This document shows positions 3,585 to 53,963 of a stretch of 64,000 nucleotides of DNA, piece by piece. The position numbers were made by a program, and so were the translations under genes. Within the stretch, counting starts at the first letter, position 1. Each line of letters begins with the position of its first letter. The notes beneath the pieces were generated by a model. The model made no database searches and was not told the origin of the DNA. It was given only the letters and a program-made list of their open reading frames with translations. Location: NCBI RefSeq assembly GCF_004362865.1, contig NZ_SNYI01000003.1:558001-622000 (forward strand), read 5' to 3'. The DNA comes from Zeaxanthinibacter enoshimensis (lineage in GTDB: Bacteria; Bacteroidota; Bacteroidia; Flavobacteriales; Flavobacteriaceae).

Positions 3585-3926
3585 TTAGGCTACGATATAA
3601 TACCCCCGGTGCTTTTTGTAGAGAATATTGTTAAACCGATAGAATTTCTTCCCGTTCACTACCACTTTGGTGTAGCCCCGTGGTAATCTTTTGATCCTGA
3701 TCCCCTTGGGAGCAGCGACAACCACGTATCCCCGGTTGTGCCTGGCATACCATACGCCTTTTGAAAAATGGAATGCCTTTCCCTGATGATGCACAAGCTT
3801 CGGCTTATGGATTTTCGTCACGACAACACCCTGCTTGGGATAAACTTTCACAACCCGCTGGGCCTGTAATGACATTATTGAAACAAAGAACAAACTGATG
3901 ATCCATACTAAAGTGAGCTTTTTCAT
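3585..3926 (-). CDS. Small secreted protein, DUF6515-like
   Basis: A 113-residue protein with a clean signal peptide (MKKLTLVWIISLFFVS, cleavage near SLQAQ at about residue 22), so probably periplasmic or surface-associated. The mature part is rich in Lys, Tyr, Val and Gly. It ends with GYTKVVVNGKKFYRFNN and HRGYYIVA, a pattern like the DUF6515 family of short Bacteroidetes exported proteins. It contains no cysteine and no enzyme motif. It stands alone between two intrinsic terminators, so it is a single-gene transcript. The function is unknown; the family match is from memory of its sequence pattern and should be treated as likely, not certain. Confidence 0.7.
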   Translation of the reverse strand: MKKLTLVWIISLFFVSIMSLQAQRVVKVYPKQGVVVTKIHKPKLVHHQGKAFHFSKGVWYARHNRGYVVVAAPKGIRIKRLPRGYTKVVVNGKKFYRFNNILYKKHRGYYIVA

Positions 3927-3983
3927 AACTTAAGATTTAATGGTTACTGTTTCTTTGATTCGATTAAAGCAGAAGGGTTTAAC

Positions 3984-4011
3984 AAAAAAGAAGCCCGAGG
4001 GCTTCTTTTTT
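3984..4011 (-). terminator. Terminator downstream of the ECF sigma operon
   Basis: The bases form the stem AAGCCC/GGGCTT extended by A and T runs on both sides (AAAAAAGAAGCCC and GGGCTTCTTTTTTA), so it can work in both directions. It lies about 20 bases past the stop of the last gene of the minus-strand sigma operon (4033). Confidence 0.85.
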
Positions 4012-4032
4012 ATGCAGTTCATCGAATTAGCG

Positions 4033-4491
4033 TTAATTCCTCCTGCCGGCTTGCTTCTCACTGTATCGTTTGATCAGTTGACGACGGAATTCATATTCTG
4101 CACGGAACATCATCAGGGTCTTCCTGGCCGAGATCGTCCTGGCGATCCGGCTAAAGTATTCCTTGTCCAGTTCTTCCTGTTGTTCCTCCAGTTCCAGGTA
4201 TCGCTCCAGCAACTTCTGGGCTTCTGATTCGCCAATAGATTCAGCGCTTCTCAGTCTTTCATAGATCTCCTTCTTTTCCGTTTCCCGGAGCGCTTCTTTC
4301 TTCTCCTCGTACTCGTTATAGAGCGGCCAGAATACTTCAGCTTCCTTCGCAGACAAAGATAAACGCTCAGTGAAAAAAGCCACTTTCAGCGCTTTCAGCT
4401 TGCTGCGGTCAGGTTTATTCTGCCCGTAAAAGACCGTTGATGTCATTAGCATCAGCAAGAACAGCCCTATGTATAATATCTTATTCATCAA
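4033..4491 (-). CDS. Periplasmic 'sensor of ECF sigma factor'-type protein (CpxP/Spy-like helical protein)
   Basis: This 152-residue protein has a signal peptide (about residues 1-23, ending in TVFYGQ). Behind it is an almost entirely helical, charged mature part (EAEVFWPLYNEYEEKKEALR and further Glu/Lys/Arg-rich segments), much like the CpxP/Spy fold of periplasmic stress chaperones. Flavobacterial relatives beside ECF sigma genes are usually named 'sensor of ECF-type sigma factor', although I know of no proof of that role. Its start overlaps the end of the membrane protein gene by 11 bases, so the two are translated together. I infer an envelope-stress sensing or chaperone role from the operon; no catalytic motif is present. 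Confidence 0.75.
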   Translation of the reverse strand: MMNKILYIGLFLLMLMTSTVFYGQNKPDRSKLKALKVAFFTERLSLSAKEAEVFWPLYNEYEEKKEALRETEKKEIYERLRSAESIGESEAQKLLERYLELEEQQEELDKEYFSRIARTISARKTLMMFRAEYEFRRQLIKRYSEKQAGRRN

Positions 4492-4993
4492 TACTAAAAT
4501 TTAAATCGTCTATATCTTCAAGAGATTCATCGAGGTAATCCATAAGCTGTTCCCTGTCAATATTATCATCCAACAGGTCTTGTACCTCCAGTTCGTCCAC
4601 AGGAATTACCTGGGCGATCTCGTATTCATTTAGTTCTATATCCTTGTTCTCAAAATAGGCTTCAATCTCTCCTTTGGCCAGGTCATCAAAACCAAGTTCG
4701 TTATTCCCGGGTCCGAAGAGGGAGAAAGTAAGGAGGAGAATGGCTGCTGCCGAAACGGCACTTACCCAATACTTGCGATAGCTTTTTAATTGTATCACCT
4801 TAGGTTCGGGCTTTTGCATTTTCGCCTTCAGCCGTTCTTCAAAGGATTCAAAATATCCGTCGGGAACAGCCATACCGGTCTCAGCCGGGAGGTTTCCCCC
4901 GGATTCTTCCATACGGGCTTTCAGCCTGGCTTCAAATGATTCAAAGTAGTTGTGAGGAACTTTGAACCCGCTATTTTCAGGTTTTTTCTTCAT
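4481..4993 (-). CDS. Single-pass membrane protein, probable anti-sigma factor with a duplicated cytoplasmic motif
   Basis: This 170-residue protein sits between an ECF sigma gene and a periplasmic helical protein, the usual place for an anti-sigma factor. It has a cytoplasmic Lys/Arg-rich N-terminal half, one membrane span (about residues 76-94, YWVSAVSAAAILLLTFSLFG) and an acidic C-terminal domain with many Asp, Glu and Leu. The N-terminal half holds two near-identical copies of a 17-residue motif: VPHNYFESFEARLKARM (12-28) and VPDGYFESFEERLKAKM (43-59). The classic zinc-binding HxxxCxxC motif of ZAS anti-sigma factors is absent. The membrane topology and sigma-binding role are inferred; the repeat and the span are seen directly. 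Confidence 0.72.
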   Translation of the reverse strand: MKKKPENSGFKVPHNYFESFEARLKARMEESGGNLPAETGMAVPDGYFESFEERLKAKMQKPEPKVIQLKSYRKYWVSAVSAAAILLLTFSLFGPGNNELGFDDLAKGEIEAYFENKDIELNEYEIAQVIPVDELEVQDLLDDNIDREQLMDYLDESLEDIDDLNFSIDE

Positions 4994-5027
4994 GTGTATT
5001 ACTTTGATGCCATTTAGAACAAAAGGT

Positions 5028-5570
5028 TTAATCTTCCTTCAGGAATGCTTCTATTTTTTTGGTAGCCAGGTGGTAAGAGGCTTTTAGTCCTCCAACAGAA
5101 GTTTCCAGGATTTCCGAGATCTCTTCGTATTTCAGCTCCTCGAAATATTTCATGTTGAACACCAGCTTTTGTTTCTCCGGCAGGGTGGCAATGGCCTTCT
5201 GAAGTTTCAGTTGAATCTCGTCTCCCTCAAAATATACATCTGCTTTCAGGTTTTCTGCCAGTTGCTCCTGCAGCTCATTTCCTGTGACTCCAAGTTTCCT
5301 TGATTTGGTCTTGAGGAACATCAGGGCTTCGTTGGTGGCGATCCTGTACATCCAGGAAAACAGTTTGCTTTCGCCCTTGAACCCTTCAATATTTTTAAAG
5401 ACTTTTATAAAGGTATTTTGCAGTACATCATCAGCATCGTCATGGTCCATGACAATTTTCCGGATATGCCAGTACAGTCGTTCCTTGTAGGTCGTTACAA
5501 GTACTTCAAAAGCCTGCGGCTGGGTATCCTTATTCTGTAGTTGGTCTACTAAGGTCTTTTCGGCGATCAA
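5028..5570 (-). CDS. ECF-type RNA polymerase sigma factor
   Basis: A 180-residue sigma-70-like protein with only regions 2 and 4, as in extracytoplasmic-function sigma factors. Region 2 includes DDADDVLQNTFIKVFKNI and FSWMYRIATNEALMFLK (about residues 42-90). Region 4 includes LPEKQKLVFNMKYFEELKYE and the helix-turn-helix EISEILETSVGGLKASYHLA. The reading frame begins with a TTG codon at 5570; no ATG precedes the conserved part, so TTG is the best start. It heads an operon with the membrane protein and the periplasmic protein downstream. The upstream region carries a candidate ECF-type promoter, suggesting that it controls its own expression. Target genes are unknown. Confidence 0.92.
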   Translation of the reverse strand: MIAEKTLVDQLQNKDTQPQAFEVLVTTYKERLYWHIRKIVMDHDDADDVLQNTFIKVFKNIEGFKGESKLFSWMYRIATNEALMFLKTKSRKLGVTGNELQEQLAENLKADVYFEGDEIQLKLQKAIATLPEKQKLVFNMKYFEELKYEEISEILETSVGGLKASYHLATKKIEAFLKED

Positions 5571-5592
5571 ATCCTGGTTTGTTATACTAATG

Positions 5593-5619
5593 AGACAACT
5601 CCTTTCTGAAAAGGTTTAA
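5593..5619 (-). promoter_or_regulatory. Candidate ECF promoter of the sigma operon
   Basis: On the minus strand TTAAACC (ending near 5613) and GTCT (5593-5596) are 16 bases apart, about 25 bases before the sigma start codon. The AAC/GTC pairing at this spacing resembles ECF promoters in general. The TTAAACCTTTT block recurs before the next gene of this operon (5021-5033) and before the S41 peptidase gene (37401). This is inference from pattern only. Confidence 0.4.
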
Positions 5620-5699
5620 TCCGGTGATCTTAAAACGGCTTAATTTTTTATTTCGTGTACCAGGAAAAATCTATTATGCCTGCAACCAGTGATTTATGA

Positions 5700-7526
5700 T
5701 CATCCCCTGAGGGATTGCATCTCCACCAGGTTCTTATACACCCCGTTCTTAGCCAGTAATTCATTGTGGGTGCCCTGTTCGGCGATCTTTCCCTTTTGCA
5801 TTACGATGATCTTATGCGCGTTCTGTATGGTCGATAACCGGTGGGCGATCACCACGGAGGTCCTGTTCTGCATCATTTTCTCCAGCGCATCCTGTACAAG
5901 TCGTTCGCTTTCGGTGTCCAATGCAGAGGTAGCTTCATCCAGGATCATTATCGGCGGATTTTTCAGTACTGCCCTGGCAATAGAAAGTCTTTGTTTCTGA
6001 CCCCCGCTCAGTTTGTTTCCACTGTCCCCGATATTAGTGTCATATCCTTTGGGAAGCGAAGTGATGAATTCATGGGCGTTCGCGATCTTGGCGGCTTCGA
6101 TGATCTCTTCTTCTGTCGCATTTTCTTTTCCCAGGCCGATGTTGTTCCTCACCGTATCATTAAAAAGTATGGAATCCTGGGTAACCAGGCCCATCAGGTG
6201 GCGTAGTGATATTTTTTCTATACTCCGTATATCAGTTCCGTCAATCCTGATACTCCCCTCGTTAACGTCGTAAAAACGGGTTAGCAGGTTGGCAATGGTA
6301 CTTTTACCACTCCCGGACTGCCCCACAAGGGCAACCATACTGCCTTTAGGCACTTCCAGGCTGAAATCTTTCAGGACGTATTCGTCTTCGTATTTGAAGG
6401 AAACATTTTCCAGGTTAAGGCCGTGTTCAAAGCTCTCTTTTCGGATGGCTGCAGGCTGGTCCCTGATGGGATTTTCGGTCTCCAAGATCTCCAGGACCCG
6501 TTCTGCGGCAGCATTTCCTTTTTTCACCCCGTAGGAGGCCTTGCTGATCGACTTAGCCGGGGTAAGAATATTGTAGGCGAGGCCCATGTATGCGATAAAG
6601 GAAGAAGCGTCCAGGGTCTGGTCTACCAATACCATCTTACCTCCGAACCACAGTAATACCCCTATGACAAGGATACCCAGGAATTCACCCGTTGGTGAAG
6701 CCAGGTTCTGCCGGTTCAGCAAAGTGTTGGAAAAACGGAAGAAGCGGGTAGTGGATGCTTTGAACATCTGGTAAAAGCGATCTTCGGCATTAAAAGCCTT
6801 GATGACCCTTAGTCCACCCAGGGTTTCTTCTACGATAGAGAGGAAATTACCCTGTTCTTTCTGCACCCGGTCCGATTTCTTCTTCAGTGATTTCCCGATG
6901 GCTGAAATGATCATCCCGGCCAGGGGAATAAAGATAAATACGAATATTGTAAGCTTTACACTGATAAAGAACATCACGATGATAGTAAACAAGATGGTCA
7001 GCGGTTCCCGCACGATCAGCTCAAGTATTGAGAGGAAGCTATGCTGTATCTCCAGCACATCTGAAGTGATCCTGGCAATGACATCGCCCTTCCTCTTCTC
7101 TGAATAGAAAGAAACCGGCAGGTCCACGATCTTACGGTACATAGCATTCCGGACATCTTTCAGGACCCCGTTCCTCAGGAAGGTGATGTAATACATCGCC
7201 AGGTAATTGAACAGGTTCTTGAGCAGGAACAGGAAAAGTACCAGCCCGATCACCAGCACCAGCCCTTTCATTTCGTCATCACCGGAATAGCCCGTAACCT
7301 GGTAATTCAGGTAGTCCTGTACGAAGGTCTTTAAATCCCCGATCCCCGTATATACGGGAGCTTCATAAACTTTCCTGGATTTGTCGAACAGTACATCCAG
7401 CATCGGGATCAGGGCGGCAAAGGAAAGCGCACTGAACAAGGCATAGAGCACGTTAAAGAAAATATTGAGGTACCCGTAAGTACTGTATGGCTTCGCAAAG
7501 CGAAGGATCTTTTTAAAATACTCCAT
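5700..7526 (-). CDS. ABC exporter, permease fused to ATPase (MsbA-like)
   Basis: A 608-residue half-transporter of the ABCB type. The N-terminal 310 residues hold about six membrane spans. The C-terminal ATPase has Walker A GQSGSGKST (about 390), signature LSGGQKQR (about 497), Walker B IMILDEATSALD and the H-loop in VIAHRLST. Proteins of this shape work as homodimers in the inner membrane and export lipids, lipid A precursors or drugs; the MsbA/lipid-flippase role is the commonest for flavobacterial members but the substrate cannot be read from the sequence. Its ATG shares one base with the stop of the phosphohexomutase gene (TAATG), which implies translational coupling. Confidence 0.88.
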   Translation of the reverse strand: MEYFKKILRFAKPYSTYGYLNIFFNVLYALFSALSFAALIPMLDVLFDKSRKVYEAPVYTGIGDLKTFVQDYLNYQVTGYSGDDEMKGLVLVIGLVLFLFLLKNLFNYLAMYYITFLRNGVLKDVRNAMYRKIVDLPVSFYSEKRKGDVIARITSDVLEIQHSFLSILELIVREPLTILFTIIVMFFISVKLTIFVFIFIPLAGMIISAIGKSLKKKSDRVQKEQGNFLSIVEETLGGLRVIKAFNAEDRFYQMFKASTTRFFRFSNTLLNRQNLASPTGEFLGILVIGVLLWFGGKMVLVDQTLDASSFIAYMGLAYNILTPAKSISKASYGVKKGNAAAERVLEILETENPIRDQPAAIRKESFEHGLNLENVSFKYEDEYVLKDFSLEVPKGSMVALVGQSGSGKSTIANLLTRFYDVNEGSIRIDGTDIRSIEKISLRHLMGLVTQDSILFNDTVRNNIGLGKENATEEEIIEAAKIANAHEFITSLPKGYDTNIGDSGNKLSGGQKQRLSIARAVLKNPPIMILDEATSALDTESERLVQDALEKMMQNRTSVVIAHRLSTIQNAHKIIVMQKGKIAEQGTHNELLAKNGVYKNLVEMQSLRG

Positions 7527-50034: not shown

Positions 50035-50493
50035 ATGACTATGAAACTGAAAATTCCGCCTGCACTTGTCTTCCTGTCTTTTGCGATCCTGATGTACCTC
50101 TTGGATTTTTGGTTGCCGGTAGGGGAGTTCGAATTCTTTGGCAGGAAATGGATGATATACGCCTTAACAGGGATCGCTATATTGGTAAGCCTGGTAGCCC
50201 TTTTGCAATTCTCACGAGCCGGTACCACAATCGATCCCAGGGATCCCGCTAAATCTAAGGTGCTGGTAACAACGGGTATCTATAATTACACACGGAATCC
50301 CATGTACCTTGCGTTGCTTCTTTTACTACTTGCCTGGGGGCTCTACCTCGGTAATGCATTCAATACCTTACTCGCAGCGCTATTTGTCGCGTATATGAAC
50401 CGGTTCCAGATCCTTCCTGAAGAAGAGAGCCTGGAAAAGGAATTCGGCCAGGTGTATCGTACCTATTGTATGGCTGTCCGGAGATGGTTCTGA
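50035..50493 (+). CDS. Isoprenylcysteine carboxyl methyltransferase-like integral membrane protein
   Basis: A 152-residue membrane protein with about four helices. The SAM-binding C-terminal half carries GIYNYTRNPMYLALLLLLLA and EEESLEKEFGQVYRTYC, which are diagnostic for the ICMT/PEMT-like methyltransferases. The bacterial members have varied or unknown substrates; true protein prenyl-cysteine methylation is not expected here. It may start at the first ATG (50035) or the second (50041). It diverges from rdgB. Confidence 0.85.
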   Translation: MTMKLKIPPALVFLSFAILMYLLDFWLPVGEFEFFGRKWMIYALTGIAILVSLVALLQFSRAGTTIDPRDPAKSKVLVTTGIYNYTRNPMYLALLLLLLAWGLYLGNAFNTLLAALFVAYMNRFQILPEEESLEKEFGQVYRTYCMAVRRWF

Positions 50494-50583
50494 TAGATGA
50501 TAAGCTAATCCAGTAATAATTTATTTTATTATCGATTTAGGTAATATTTTACTACATTAGCGTTATCATTAATAAAGACCAGT

Positions 50584-51195
50584 ATGATCGCCATTATCAC
50601 CGGTGATATTATTAATTCTGAAGAATACCGTGCCTCGGAATGGATGGAGGTGCTGAAAAATTATTTTCTGGAATTGGGCAACTCCCCGGCCGACTGGGAG
50701 TTTTACCGGGGTGATGAGTTCCAGATTCGACTCCCGGCAGAGCGTGCTTTAAAAACTGCAATTGCTATAAAGGCTCGGATAAAAATGTTTAAAAACCTGG
50801 ATGTGAGGATGGGGATCGGACTTGGAGACGAAACCTACAGGGGCCCGAAGGTTAGTGAATCTAATGGAACAGCCTACCAGAGATCCGGACGGACCTTTGA
50901 ACGCCTTAAAGATGAGAAGGTACACTTGGCTATATCCAGTGGTAATGCAAGGCAAGACAGGACGTTAAACCTTATCCTGCTGCTGGCGCTCGACTTTATG
51001 AACGACTGGAGCCAGGTTTCTGCTGAGATAATGGTGCTTCTCCTGAAGGACCCTCACGCCCCCCAGAACCAGATTGCCGAAGAGTTAGGGATCAAGCAGT
51101 CTGCAGTAAGCCAGCGATTCAAACGAGCCCGGAAAGACCTGGTCCTGTCAGTCCTCCGCCATTATAATTCCACCTTAAAAGATCTTATTCAATGA
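50584..51195 (+). CDS. SatD family protein: nucleotide-cyclase-like domain plus winged-helix domain
   Basis: A 203-residue protein fitting the SatD family. The first 120 residues start MIAIITGDIINSEEY and include WEFYRGDEFQIRL and VRMGIGLGDETY, a layout that recalls the class III cyclase/GGDEF-like ferredoxin fold (RGDEF here, in the place of GGDEF). The last 70 residues hold a helix-turn-helix: PQNQIAEELGIKQSAVSQRF followed by KRARKD, suggesting DNA binding. I infer a ligand-responsive transcription regulator; cyclase activity is uncertain. Its stop overlaps the DUF3307 gene start by four bases (ATGA), so the two are made together. Confidence 0.8.
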   Translation: MIAIITGDIINSEEYRASEWMEVLKNYFLELGNSPADWEFYRGDEFQIRLPAERALKTAIAIKARIKMFKNLDVRMGIGLGDETYRGPKVSESNGTAYQRSGRTFERLKDEKVHLAISSGNARQDRTLNLILLLALDFMNDWSQVSAEIMVLLLKDPHAPQNQIAEELGIKQSAVSQRFKRARKDLVLSVLRHYNSTLKDLIQ

Positions 51196-51908
51196 TGCTA
51201 TTCCTTAAACTGCTGCTCGCCCATTTGCTGGGGGATTTTTTGCTGCAGCCACAGCGATGGACCATCCACCAGGACGCCAATAAAATCACTTCCAAATACC
51301 TTTACCTGCATATATTCCTCCATTTTGTACTGGTATGGCTGGTCCTCTGGGACCTCTCACTTTGGTACCTGGCAGCAGCGATAGCTGTCAGTCACTACCT
51401 GATAGACCTGCTGCGCCTGTATATCCAGGGAAAGTTCCAATACCGCCGTATTCCTTTTATGCTGGGCCAGTTATTGCATGTAGCTGTACTTGGGTTAGTA
51501 GCATATTACATGGCCACTCCCCGGGTGGTATTCGGGGACTTATTCTCCGGATTTAACTGGGCATTACTGACGGCCCTTGTCTTTGTGACCCAGCCAGTAG
51601 CCGTACTGATGGCTTACTTACTGGAAGGAATGTCTGACCAGATAGAGACCGATCATAAATCCCTGCCTAACGCCGGGCGCTATATAGGGATCCTGGAGCG
51701 TTTGTTTGTGCTGGTTTTCATTGTGATCGGGCGATGGGATGCTATCGGTTTGTTAATCACGGCCAAATCCGTCTTCCGTTTTAATGATCTCAAAGAAAGT
51801 AACAGCCGTAAACTTACCGAGTATATCCTAATAGGAACCTTGCTGAGTTTTGGATTCGCTATTCTTACAGGCCTGTTATATAACTACTTCATCTATAATT
51901 TTGCCTGA
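51192..51908 (+). CDS. DUF3307 family integral membrane protein
   Basis: A 238-residue protein with six or so hydrophobic helices. The opening LLLAHLLGDFLLQPQRW is diagnostic of DUF3307, with the His and Asp-Phe conserved in the first helix and SHYLIDLLRLY in the third. Charged His and Asp residues inside membrane segments hint at a metal-binding or catalytic site, as in membrane-embedded hydrolases, but no activity is known. It is translationally coupled to the SatD-like regulator. The pair is known in other bacteria as neighbours (sat operon of streptococci). Confidence 0.8.
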   Translation: MMLFLKLLLAHLLGDFLLQPQRWTIHQDANKITSKYLYLHIFLHFVLVWLVLWDLSLWYLAAAIAVSHYLIDLLRLYIQGKFQYRRIPFMLGQLLHVAVLGLVAYYMATPRVVFGDLFSGFNWALLTALVFVTQPVAVLMAYLLEGMSDQIETDHKSLPNAGRYIGILERLFVLVFIVIGRWDAIGLLITAKSVFRFNDLKESNSRKLTEYILIGTLLSFGFAILTGLLYNYFIYNFA

Positions 51909-52070: not shown

Positions 52071-53963
52071 ATGATAGAAGCGGGAAGAAAATACGTGTTT
52101 GATTTTGACAGCACCCTTACCCGGGTTGAGGCCCTGGACGTGCTGGCGGAAATGAGCTTGAAAGACAGATCTAACCGGGACGAAGTGATCAGGGAGATCC
52201 AGAAGATCACCAACCTTGGGATAGACGGGGATATCTCGTTTACAGAGTCACTGGAGCGGCGTATCCGCCTACTGGAAGCGCACAGGGACGACCTGCCCAG
52301 GCTGGTAGAGGAATTGAGACAGAAGATCTCCAAAAGTATCGCGTCTAATAAAGAATTCTTCGATAAATTCTCGGAGGATATCTATGTGATCTCCTGTGGG
52401 TTCAAAGAATTTATAGATCCTATCGTAGCTGAATATAATATACCATCAGAACGGGTTTTTGCCAATACATTCGAATTCGATGAAGATGGCCGGATTGTTG
52501 GTTTCGACAAAGGTAACGTGCTGGCGAGCCACAACGGGAAGATTCAATGTCTAAAGGATCTGGACCTGGATGGGGAAGTGCAGGTTATAGGTGATGGATA
52601 CAGTGATTATGTTATGCGTGAAGCCGGCATCGCTGATAAATTCTTTGCTTATACAGAAAATGTGCACCGTGAAAAAGCTACCCAGGCTGCAGATCACGTG
52701 GCTCCTAACCTTGATGAATTTTTATTTGTGAACGATTTGCCCAGAAATATCTCGTACCCTAAGAACCGTATTAAGATCCTGTTACTGGAGAATGTGCACC
52801 CCGCTGCCTTTGATAACCTGGCAGAAGATGGTTTTTCTGTTGAATTGGTAAAGCACAGTCTTTCCGAAGAGGAACTTATTGAAAAAATAAGAGGGGTTCA
52901 TGTGCTGGGGATCCGCTCCAAGACACAGGTAACAAAAAAAGTACTCGATGCTGCTAATAAATTATTGGTGGTGGGTGCTTTTTGTATCGGTACCACGCAA
53001 ATTGATCTCGATTACTGCAAGAAGAAGGGCGTGGTAGTTTTCAACGCACCCTACAGTAACACCCGCTCGGTTGTGGAACTTGCCATAGGGCAGATCATTA
53101 TGCTGATGCGCAGCATTTTTCCAAGGAGCACCGAGATACATGGAGGGCAGTGGAACAAGACCGCCGAGAATTCCAGGGAAGTCAGGGGCAAGAACCTGGG
53201 GATCGTGGGGTATGGTAATATCGGGAAACAATTGTCGGTACTGGCAGAAGCTATGGGAATGCGAGTTTACTTCTATGATATCGAAGAAAAACTGGCCCTT
53301 GGAAATGCCAAGTCGTGTGCTACGCTGGAAGACCTGCTGAATGTTTCTGACGTCGTCTCCCTGCATATTGATGACAATAAGGCCAATAAGAATTTTATAG
53401 GGGAACGCGAGTTCCGTCAGATGCGCGAGGGGGCAGTACTGCTGAACCTGTCACGTGGCTTCGTGGTAGACATTCCTGCCCTTGTTCAGGCGTTGAAGTC
53501 AGGTAAACTTGCCGGTGCAGCTGTTGATGTATATCCGGAAGAACCCAGGAGTAACGGCCCGTTTGAAACGGAATTACGCGGTTTGAATAATGTGATCCTT
53601 ACCCCGCATATTGGGGGAAGTACGGAAGAAGCCCAGCGTGATATTGCCGATTTTGTACCCAATAAGATCATGGGATATATTAATTCAGGGAATACGGTCG
53701 ATGCCGTGAATTTCCCGAATATACGCCTGCCAAAACAAGACAATGCGCACAGGTTCCTTCACATTCATAAGAATGTGCCGGGAGTTATGGCAAAGATCAA
53801 CGAAGTGCTGGCCAGGTACGAGATGAATATTACAGGGCAATACCTGTCTACGGACAGCGATGTGGGGTACGTGATCTCTGACCTGAACAAGGAATACAAC
53901 AAGGAAGTGATACAGGCTTTAAAAAAGGTAGAGAATACCATTAAATTCCGCGTGCTCTACTAA
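52071..53963 (+). CDS. serA: Fused phosphoserine phosphatase-like / D-3-phosphoglycerate dehydrogenase (SerB-SerA)
   Basis: A 630-residue fusion. Residues 1-215 form a HAD phosphatase of SerB type: nucleophile loop FDFDSTLTR (Asp 11, Asp 13), Ser 108 in VISCGFKEF, Lys 157 and the Asp loop GDGYSDYVM (174-182). Residues 232-555 form phosphoglycerate dehydrogenase: Rossmann loop GIVGYGNIGK (377-386), catalytic Arg in NLSRGF, Glu in DVYPEEP and His 513 in TPHIGGST. Residues 560-630 are an ACT domain (HKNVPGVMAKINEVL) that normally senses serine. The two halves would catalyse the first and last steps of serine synthesis. A TACTTTTA -7-like element lies at 52041-52048. No frameshift separates the halves. 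Confidence 0.93.
   Translation: MIEAGRKYVFDFDSTLTRVEALDVLAEMSLKDRSNRDEVIREIQKITNLGIDGDISFTESLERRIRLLEAHRDDLPRLVEELRQKISKSIASNKEFFDKFSEDIYVISCGFKEFIDPIVAEYNIPSERVFANTFEFDEDGRIVGFDKGNVLASHNGKIQCLKDLDLDGEVQVIGDGYSDYVMREAGIADKFFAYTENVHREKATQAADHVAPNLDEFLFVNDLPRNISYPKNRIKILLLENVHPAAFDNLAEDGFSVELVKHSLSEEELIEKIRGVHVLGIRSKTQVTKKVLDAANKLLVVGAFCIGTTQIDLDYCKKKGVVVFNAPYSNTRSVVELAIGQIIMLMRSIFPRSTEIHGGQWNKTAENSREVRGKNLGIVGYGNIGKQLSVLAEAMGMRVYFYDIEEKLALGNAKSCATLEDLLNVSDVVSLHIDDNKANKNFIGEREFRQMREGAVLLNLSRGFVVDIPALVQALKSGKLAGAAVDVYPEEPRSNGPFETELRGLNNVILTPHIGGSTEEAQRDIADFVPNKIMGYINSGNTVDAVNFPNIRLPKQDNAHRFLHIHKNVPGVMAKINEVLARYEMNITGQYLSTDSDVGYVISDLNKEYNKEVIQALKKVENTIKFRVLY

Follow-up and report, generated by a model that had tools for sequence, protein, structure and literature searches.

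The SatD/membrane-protein gene pair is a two-gene unit common to bacteria and archaea, with promoter repeats probably bound by SatD

Overlapping genes and autoregulatory sites are typical of toxin–antitoxin operons. In Panoptes, a small protein resembling nucleotide cyclases and the Cas10 palm (mCpol) adjoins a membrane protein (2TMbeta), and one paper has the system working by guard logic and describes it as a toxin–antitoxin system (PMC12657230). The SatD family (PF16264) takes its name from the sat (“secretion and acid tolerance”) operon of Streptococcus mutans. In three papers, satD appears as a proteomic difference between sublineages of Streptococcus pyogenes (PMC10210942), as a small-RNA target annotated “DNA-binding protein” in S. 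suis (PMC12005413), and as a virulence candidate in a Fusobacterium nucleatum annotation paper (PMC10326533). The family names and the adjacency of SatD and DUF3307 (PF11750) are already known to annotators, and PLSDB records list a “DUF3307 domain-containing protein” after a “SatD family protein.” A search of open-licence PubMed Central found nothing on SatD as a cyclase-like or DNA-bound protein, on the SatD pair, on a spaced array, or on the unnamed partner domain described below. Here, we analyzed satD and its overlapping membrane-protein gene in a 64,000-nucleotide stretch of Zeaxanthinibacter enoshimensis (RefSeq assembly GCF_004362865.1, contig NZ_SNYI01000003.1, forward-strand positions 558,001 to 622,000), hereafter the window, and compared the pair with its relatives.

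The window’s SatD is a family member by the curated cutoff (E value 2.6e-9; 37.5 bits against a cutoff of 29). Its partner matches DUF3307 (E 8.7e-24; 84.4 bits against a cutoff of 23) over residues 3–108 of 238 only. The window genome contains one DUF3307 match and one clear SatD match, plus a weak second one at E 8.7e-4. An earlier interpretation, made from the letters of the window alone (the sequence-only reading), had placed both open reading frames and their four-base ATGA overlap correctly and had proposed a self-contained one-component system, in which a nucleotide-binding regulator acts on a membrane protein. We examined 129 loci (L002–L130), all found through SatD and including redundant genomes (e.g., L022 and L051); L001, the same place as L007, was left out of partner and array counts. 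We predict, at a probability of about 0.62, that SatD is a one-component regulator, probably responsive to nucleoside triphosphate (NTP), that acts cooperatively and is dedicated to the two-gene operon encoding it. As judged from sequence comparison, the unit itself is common to bacteria and archaea.

The pairing is strongly conserved. A domain forming the C-terminal part of the membrane protein is encoded downstream of satD in 117 of the 129 loci, at gaps of −115 to 376 bases. Among the other 12, the contig stops within about 130 bases of satD in L024, L048, L069, and L127, a membrane-like reading frame is cut by the contig end in L109 and L114, and L113 has a short one; no recognizable partner was seen beside satD in L046, L082, L091, L099, or L107. 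In a survey of 247 Bacteroidota genomes, with five SatD matches set aside as weak (E 2.8e-4 to 8.7e-4), 86 genomes carried SatD, 86 carried the C-terminal domain, and 83 carried both (odds ratio about 1457; Fisher p 6e-58, uncorrected for kinship). Of 95 SatD matches in this phylum, 89 had the domain on the same strand no more than 1.5 kb away, in every case downstream, and 90 of 99 domain matches lay near SatD. The titles of the records place SatD in Balneolaceae, Ignavibacteria, Gammaproteobacteria, Chloroflexi, Spirochaetes, Calditrichota, and other groups as well; of 419 loci, the best 80 include no Firmicutes title. SatD is also carried on plasmids of Agrobacterium, Sphingomonas, and haloarchaea; in the four such loci tested, the next gene encodes the C-terminal domain, to which Halorientalis adds DUF3307, and the neighbor of the Haloplanus satD is annotated as DUF3307. 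Chance adjacency, to which we give next to no credence, is refuted by the odds ratio and by a gene order that stays constant from phylum to phylum and in both bacteria and archaea. Within 26 nonredundant loci with long flanks, SatD (22) and the partner (23) were the only gene clusters to occur in more than three. Both the pairing and the self-contained nature of the pair, as the sequence-only reading had them, are thus borne out. No SatD was found in phage records (query L051) or in viral contigs (with the pattern TLGDEFQ, which does not cover the window’s RGDEFQ form).

The constant part of the partner is not DUF3307. When the downstream proteins of 24 SatD loci were aligned, conservation sat in the last ~100 residues (including G, E-R, K, R, Y, and S positions), and 11 to 12 of the 24 were proteins of ~105–115 residues consisting of this C-terminal domain alone. 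Of the 117 partners, 21 carry DUF3307, 74 carry another long N-terminal region, and 22 are short forms, of which at least L054, L117, and L122 may be fragments. The C-terminal domain is homologous among the three architectures (hhalign 99.8 and 98.9%); DUF3307 and the other long N-terminal region have no detectable homology (11%). Pfam gave no match above cutoff for nine short or other-N-terminal partners, nor for the window’s C-terminal fragment. Alignment A8 holds 48 of the 64 partner references. A model of the window partner, from which misaligned DUF3307 rows from viral loci were left out, is helical in its C-terminal part, with block-mean pLDDT (predicted local distance difference test) values of 83–95 over residues 161–238; the DUF3307 half was modeled poorly (block means 51–74). 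The sequence-only reading had coupled SatD to DUF3307 as such, a coupling that did not survive: DUF3307 was absent, by the profile used, from 96 of the 117 partners of this mixed sample, and we rejected it as the defining partner. As judged from the alignments, the constant SatD partner is instead the last ~100 residues of a membrane protein, a helical domain without a Pfam family.

In Bacteroidota, DUF3307 is the commonest N-terminal form (60 of the 90 domains near SatD), and of its 64 matches there, 60 have SatD nearby and 62 have the C-terminal domain on the same strand at a distance of no more than 600 bases. Stand-alone DUF3307-like proteins with His/Asp motifs exist in large IMG/VR viral contigs (L131, 2989–3507; L132, 2968–3360), and PHROG 2470 (“membrane protein”) matches the DUF3307 part of the window partner. 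The sequence-only reading had pointed to in-membrane His and Asp residues; the set H11, D15, H40, H68, D72, and H96 is invariant in 12 aligned relatives. Partner residue 92 (51465–51467), a nearly invariant Asp in the DQxxH motif of DUF3307, is Gly in the window and in L006 and L011 of the same genus; this is possibly an altered metal site. Such features bear on a reading in which SatD controls a stress or transport membrane protein, the partner being a transporter or membrane enzyme. The origin of the SatD name in the S. mutans operon, a His/Asp set that could bind metal, and the prevalence of DUF3307 in Bacteroidota speak for it. We nevertheless consider it unlikely, given that DUF3307 is missing from most partners of the mixed sample, that the title of the 2001 S. 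mutans paper attributes acid tolerance to Ffh and not to SatD, and that no solved structure is clearly partner-like: a search of the Protein Data Bank (PDB) gave a best Foldseek E of 1.2 and no Z score above 7.6, with a query whose DUF3307 half is poor.

We modeled SatD with AlphaFold2 from a 66-row alignment (A4: the window protein and 65 of 73 listed SatD references, seven short or cut loci having been left out of the listing); all 66 members match PF16264 (E up to 0.1), and a second alignment (A1) has 24 rows. The model (pLDDT 91.5; predicted template modeling score 0.88) has strands at residues 2–10, 38–41, 45–51, 73–81, and 115–118 with helices between them, followed by an all-helical C-terminal part. 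Foldseek against the PDB returned a class III cyclase (Ma1120) and a Csm complex chain, with a best E of 3.8e-4 (probability 1.00), four matches at E ≤0.001, and GGDEF and further cyclases just below. In VIA-align (top 1000), the highest Z, 13.2, fell to GTP cyclohydrolase III (2qv6; 2.5 Å over 106 residues), followed by the Rv1625c cyclase (11.9), Cmr2 (Cas10; 11.8, 6.8 Å over 160 residues), and a GGEEF domain (11.7); other listed rows had Z 10.7–11.9, mostly at 2.4–3.5 Å over 107–121 residues, and five Cmr2 rows covered 156–163 residues at 6.8–7.4 Å. The cyclase/GGDEF-like fold proposed by the sequence-only reading is therefore well supported by the model (Z about 11–13), and the segments on which that proposal had relied, RGDEFQ and MGIGLGD, are residues 42–47 and 76–82.

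In both alignments, D8 (with one gap), S12, G43, D44 (in the hairpin of strands 2 and 3), G95, and W142 are invariant, and the position and motif register of D8 and D44 suggest that they are metal ligands. SatD shares the ferredoxin-like fold, the strand-1 Asp, and a GD(E)F-type hairpin with class III cyclases, GGDEF domains, GTP cyclohydrolase III, and the Cas10 palm, but it differs in its fusion to a helix-turn-helix (HTH) and in having no class III Asn/Arg pair: H, Y, or Q stands at residue 99 in A4, and residue 103 varies, the positions being equated by motif register and not by superposition. Common descent of the SatD N-terminal domain with the cyclase/GGDEF superfamily is likely; catalysis is doubtful. 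Because both aspartates are kept and the Asn/Arg pair is absent, the domain would most likely bind a metal-NTP as a signal and not make a cyclic nucleotide. The fold and the two conserved aspartates could also fit an enzymatically active SatD, a nucleotidyl cyclase or polymerase that makes the ligand of its membrane partner. We hold this to be very unlikely, however, since the transition-state Asn/Arg positions are unconserved, phased DNA sites require no enzyme, and the best Z match is to GTP cyclohydrolase III, which is not known to make a cyclic nucleotide. The window genome has zero matches to GGDEF (PF00990) or Guanylate_cyc (PF00211), and SatD may be among its few cyclase-fold proteins.

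The C-terminal part of SatD is the candidate DNA binder. A PDB sequence search with SatD alone led nowhere, and with SatD as a profile, the matches were confined to the HTH part. The sequence-only reading had called this part a winged helix; the HTH stands (Pfam, residues 149–186), but the wing does not, because the model has no strand in residues 119–203, and we rejected a winged-helix regulator.

Upstream of satD, the window carries three operator-like repeats in phase (Table 1). Its best lag of self-similarity, 28, was reached at that lag by 1 of 2000 shuffles of the 150-base region. Over all 150-base satD upstream regions, mean self-identity was 0.368 at lag 28 and 0.375 at lag 29, against 0.292 for all lags, and the best lag was 28 or 29 in 80 of 129 loci, compared with 16 of 668 controls (regions upstream of other long reading frames). 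Because L002–L130 hold redundant genomes, we used reduced sets of 112, 91, and 50 loci for array counts; in the set below 50% SatD identity, 31 of 50 loci had lag 28 or 29 and 6 more had 56–58 (controls, 3 and 10 of 265, respectively). Repeated 8-mers reached a mean of 4.0 copies (2.5 in shuffles, 2.6 in controls). Many repeats are palindromes of ~17–21 bp, clear by eye in L059, L061, L085, L088, and L113; three in-phase palindromes scored 15.86 against 13.28 for shuffles, and of the 11 spacings tried, only 28 and 29 showed an excess. The spacing extends to plasmids, with lag 29 in two haloarchaeal loci (Z 3.9 and 4.0) and lag 28 in Sphingomonas (Z 4.1) and Agrobacterium (Z 3.3); Natronosalvus has two visible palindromes and a weak lag score of 1.6. 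In L113, L118, L102, L120, and L100, a site runs by eye into TTGAC(A/T), which resembles a −35 box, and repression is therefore favored over activation. An HTH in SatD and a phased operator-like array before its gene agree with the one-component regulator of the sequence-only reading.

The sites and the recognition helices vary together. With classes picked after the motifs had been seen, GGTTNAA half-sites went with AVYKN-like helices in 19 of 19 loci, TGTTTCA with IWKRR-like in 10 of 10, TTAGC/GCTTAT with VSQR-like in 5 of 5, and TGAAGC with AVYQ in 5 of 5; 10 further loci made up four small half-site classes. L116 (Calditrichota) combines an AVSQ helix with GCTTATA-like sites, though its nearest SatD relatives are of the general type and not the window’s. 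We also scanned 10 genomes, the window genome not among them, for GGTT-type sites; an earlier, badly chosen pattern had given one site across six genomes, in Hahella. Single sites did not exceed background (47, against 43 when the pattern was reversed). Pairs with a spacing of 28, 29, or 56 bp numbered only three, and their positions are consistent with the satD promoters of L073, L059, and L065. The scan is weak evidence for a dedicated target, because the strict pattern misses most known arrays.

On these grounds, we propose that the SatD HTH binds cooperatively, probably as dimers, to an array of some two to four sites, most often palindromes, which lie upstream of satD at a spacing of 28 or 29 bp, and that occupancy of the array would set the level of SatD and of its overlapping membrane partner. 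Successive dimers at this spacing (about 2.7 turns) would lie on different faces of the DNA, which suggests a helical stack of SatD along it. The constant part of the partner would be the ~100-residue helical domain with conserved Glu, Arg, and Lys, present alone, with an unnamed N-terminal membrane region, or fused to DUF3307; SatD may also contact it directly.

Several results weigh against this autoregulator. Profile comparison of the SatD N-terminal domain gave no significant score with GGDEF (hhalign 3.9%) or Guanylate_cyc (1.2%), so that the kinship rests on fold and motif register; two accepted relatives, GGDEF and cyclase, likewise scored 1.7%, and the low-scoring alignments place D8 and GDEF in the expected register. 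In the window itself, the best lag score was matched at any lag from 8 to 70 by 165 of 2000 shuffles, the repeats are degenerate, and palindromy (14) did not exceed that of shuffles (12–16). Thirteen of the 50 nonredundant loci have a best lag that is neither 28/29 nor 56–58. No half-site class could be assigned in 80 of 129 loci, the window included, for want of exact matches, and L111 has an AVYQ helix yet GGTTTA-like sites. Shared ancestry could lie behind part of the helix/half-site correspondence; L116, whose helix and sites depart from those of its nearest relatives, is set against a purely ancestral account. The 10 genomes gave no support for a wide GGTT-site regulon, with strict pairs at satD in just 3 of the 10, a pattern by which arrays elsewhere may be missed.

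The partner’s character bears on a reading compatible with the proposed autoregulation, in which SatD keeps the membrane protein harmless through repression, contact, or a nucleotide that it makes or binds, as a guard or an antitoxin would; losing SatD or that nucleotide would then free a damaging membrane protein. That SatD restrains a harmful partner is plausible, and the S. pyogenes transposon-sequencing meta-analysis and the logic of Panoptes make the idea attractive. In that meta-analysis, satD is the sole accessory gene whose essentiality score falls in the top quarter and is essential in emm1, emm28, and emm49 strains, yet it is present in 178 of 249 genomes (PMC11323703); the streptococcal partner is outside the loci compared here. 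Like toxin–antitoxin operons, the pair has its regulator gene first, an overlapping partner, operator-like repeats upstream, and a patchy occurrence (86 of 247 genomes); its two-gene autonomy and the existence of partners of 105–115 residues also suit a guard. Unlike in those operons, however, the partner often has about 240 residues and is multihelical. Panoptes is likewise a two-gene system in which a cyclase/Cas10-palm-like protein adjoins a membrane protein, but SatD also has an HTH, the satD promoter bears the phased array, and the partner is modeled entirely as helices, with no 2TMbeta β-barrel (its N-terminal half is poorly modeled). No PADLOC model matched the six proteins scanned, and in nine loci the pair keeps a stable place behind a methyltransferase gene. 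On balance, we regard the guard or antitoxin role as somewhat unlikely. Decidedly unlikely is a nucleotide-gated version, in which a stack of NTP-bound SatD on the 28–29-bp operators would hold a damaging membrane effector off and a fall or change in nucleotide would free both promoter and effector. If it were true, the cyclase fold would be both a sensor and a DNA-bound clamp in bacteria and archaea, with exchangeable effector N-terminal domains including DUF3307.

The coordinates of the features are collected in Table 1. The methyltransferase gene precedes satD in the window and in eight other loci (L005, L006, L007, L011, L014, L016, L019, L020, and L021 are the nine, window included), and the site of satD is thus locally stable. 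Downstream of the pair, a long reading frame (52071–53963) has, from its translation, a phosphoserine phosphatase-like start and a D-3-phosphoglycerate dehydrogenase-like remainder, as in a SerB–SerA-like fusion. On Agrobacterium pAt (L136), genes near the pair (4583–6204) are annotated “antitoxin” and “nucleotidyltransferase and HEPN domain-containing protein”; the partner there (3819–4091) is annotated as 90 residues starting inside the C-terminal domain, and its true start may lie further upstream.

Table 1. Features of the satD locus, in window coordinates
Feature	Position	Strand	Basis and remarks
Phospholipid/isoprenylcysteine methyltransferase-like gene (PF04191)	50035..50493		Pfam; just upstream of satD
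Operator-like repeat 1, degenerate, ATAAGCTAATCCAGTAATA	50500..50518	+	28 bp to next; folding at 28 bp, lag-28 self-similarity
Operator-like repeat 2, ATTATCGATTTAGGTAATA	50528..50546	+	Lag-28 self-similarity; phase kept in same-genus L006 and L011
Operator-like repeat 3, ATTAGCGTTATCATTAATA	50556..50574	+	Ends 9 bases before satD ATG; lag-28 self-similarity
satD	50584..51195	+	203 residues; cyclase-like domain and HTH; PF16264 match; model
Nucleotidyl-cyclase-like domain, residues 1–120	50584..50943	+	AlphaFold2 model, Foldseek, VIA-align
Asp8 on strand 1, putative metal ligand	50605..50607	+	65/66 A4 rows (one gap), 24/24 A1; metal role from position and motif
Gly43-Asp44-Glu45-Phe46-Gln47 hairpin, GGDEF/GGDD-like	50710..50724	+	All five 66/66 in A4; in A1, G and D 24, E 19, F 22, Q 23 of 24
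Helix-turn-helix, residues 149–186	51028..51141	+	Pfam HTH families, model; wingless in model
ATGA overlap, satD stop/partner start	51192..51195	+	Reading-frame coordinates; same −4 overlap in 56/117 partner-bearing loci
Partner membrane protein, DUF3307 and C-terminal domain	51192..51908	+	238 residues; reading frame, Pfam, alignments, model
DUF3307 domain with His/Asp set, residues 3–108	51198..51515	+	PF11750, 8.7e-24; one of several N-terminal arrangements; model poor
Unnamed SatD-coupled membrane domain, residues 128–238	51573..51905	+	Alignments, hhalign, model; conserved G166, E169, R170, K192, L213, G215, S219 (window numbering)

The analysis joins two families of unknown function into one testable module, of which the unnamed, widespread membrane domain of the partner is the real signature. 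Across phyla, haloarchaea included, the spacing stays at 28/29 bp even as site sequences and recognition helices differ, a pattern that suggests a geometric constraint on a DNA-bound SatD assembly. In Streptococcus pyogenes, the module offers a candidate explanation for how satD can be essential yet accessory, as the meta-analysis has it.

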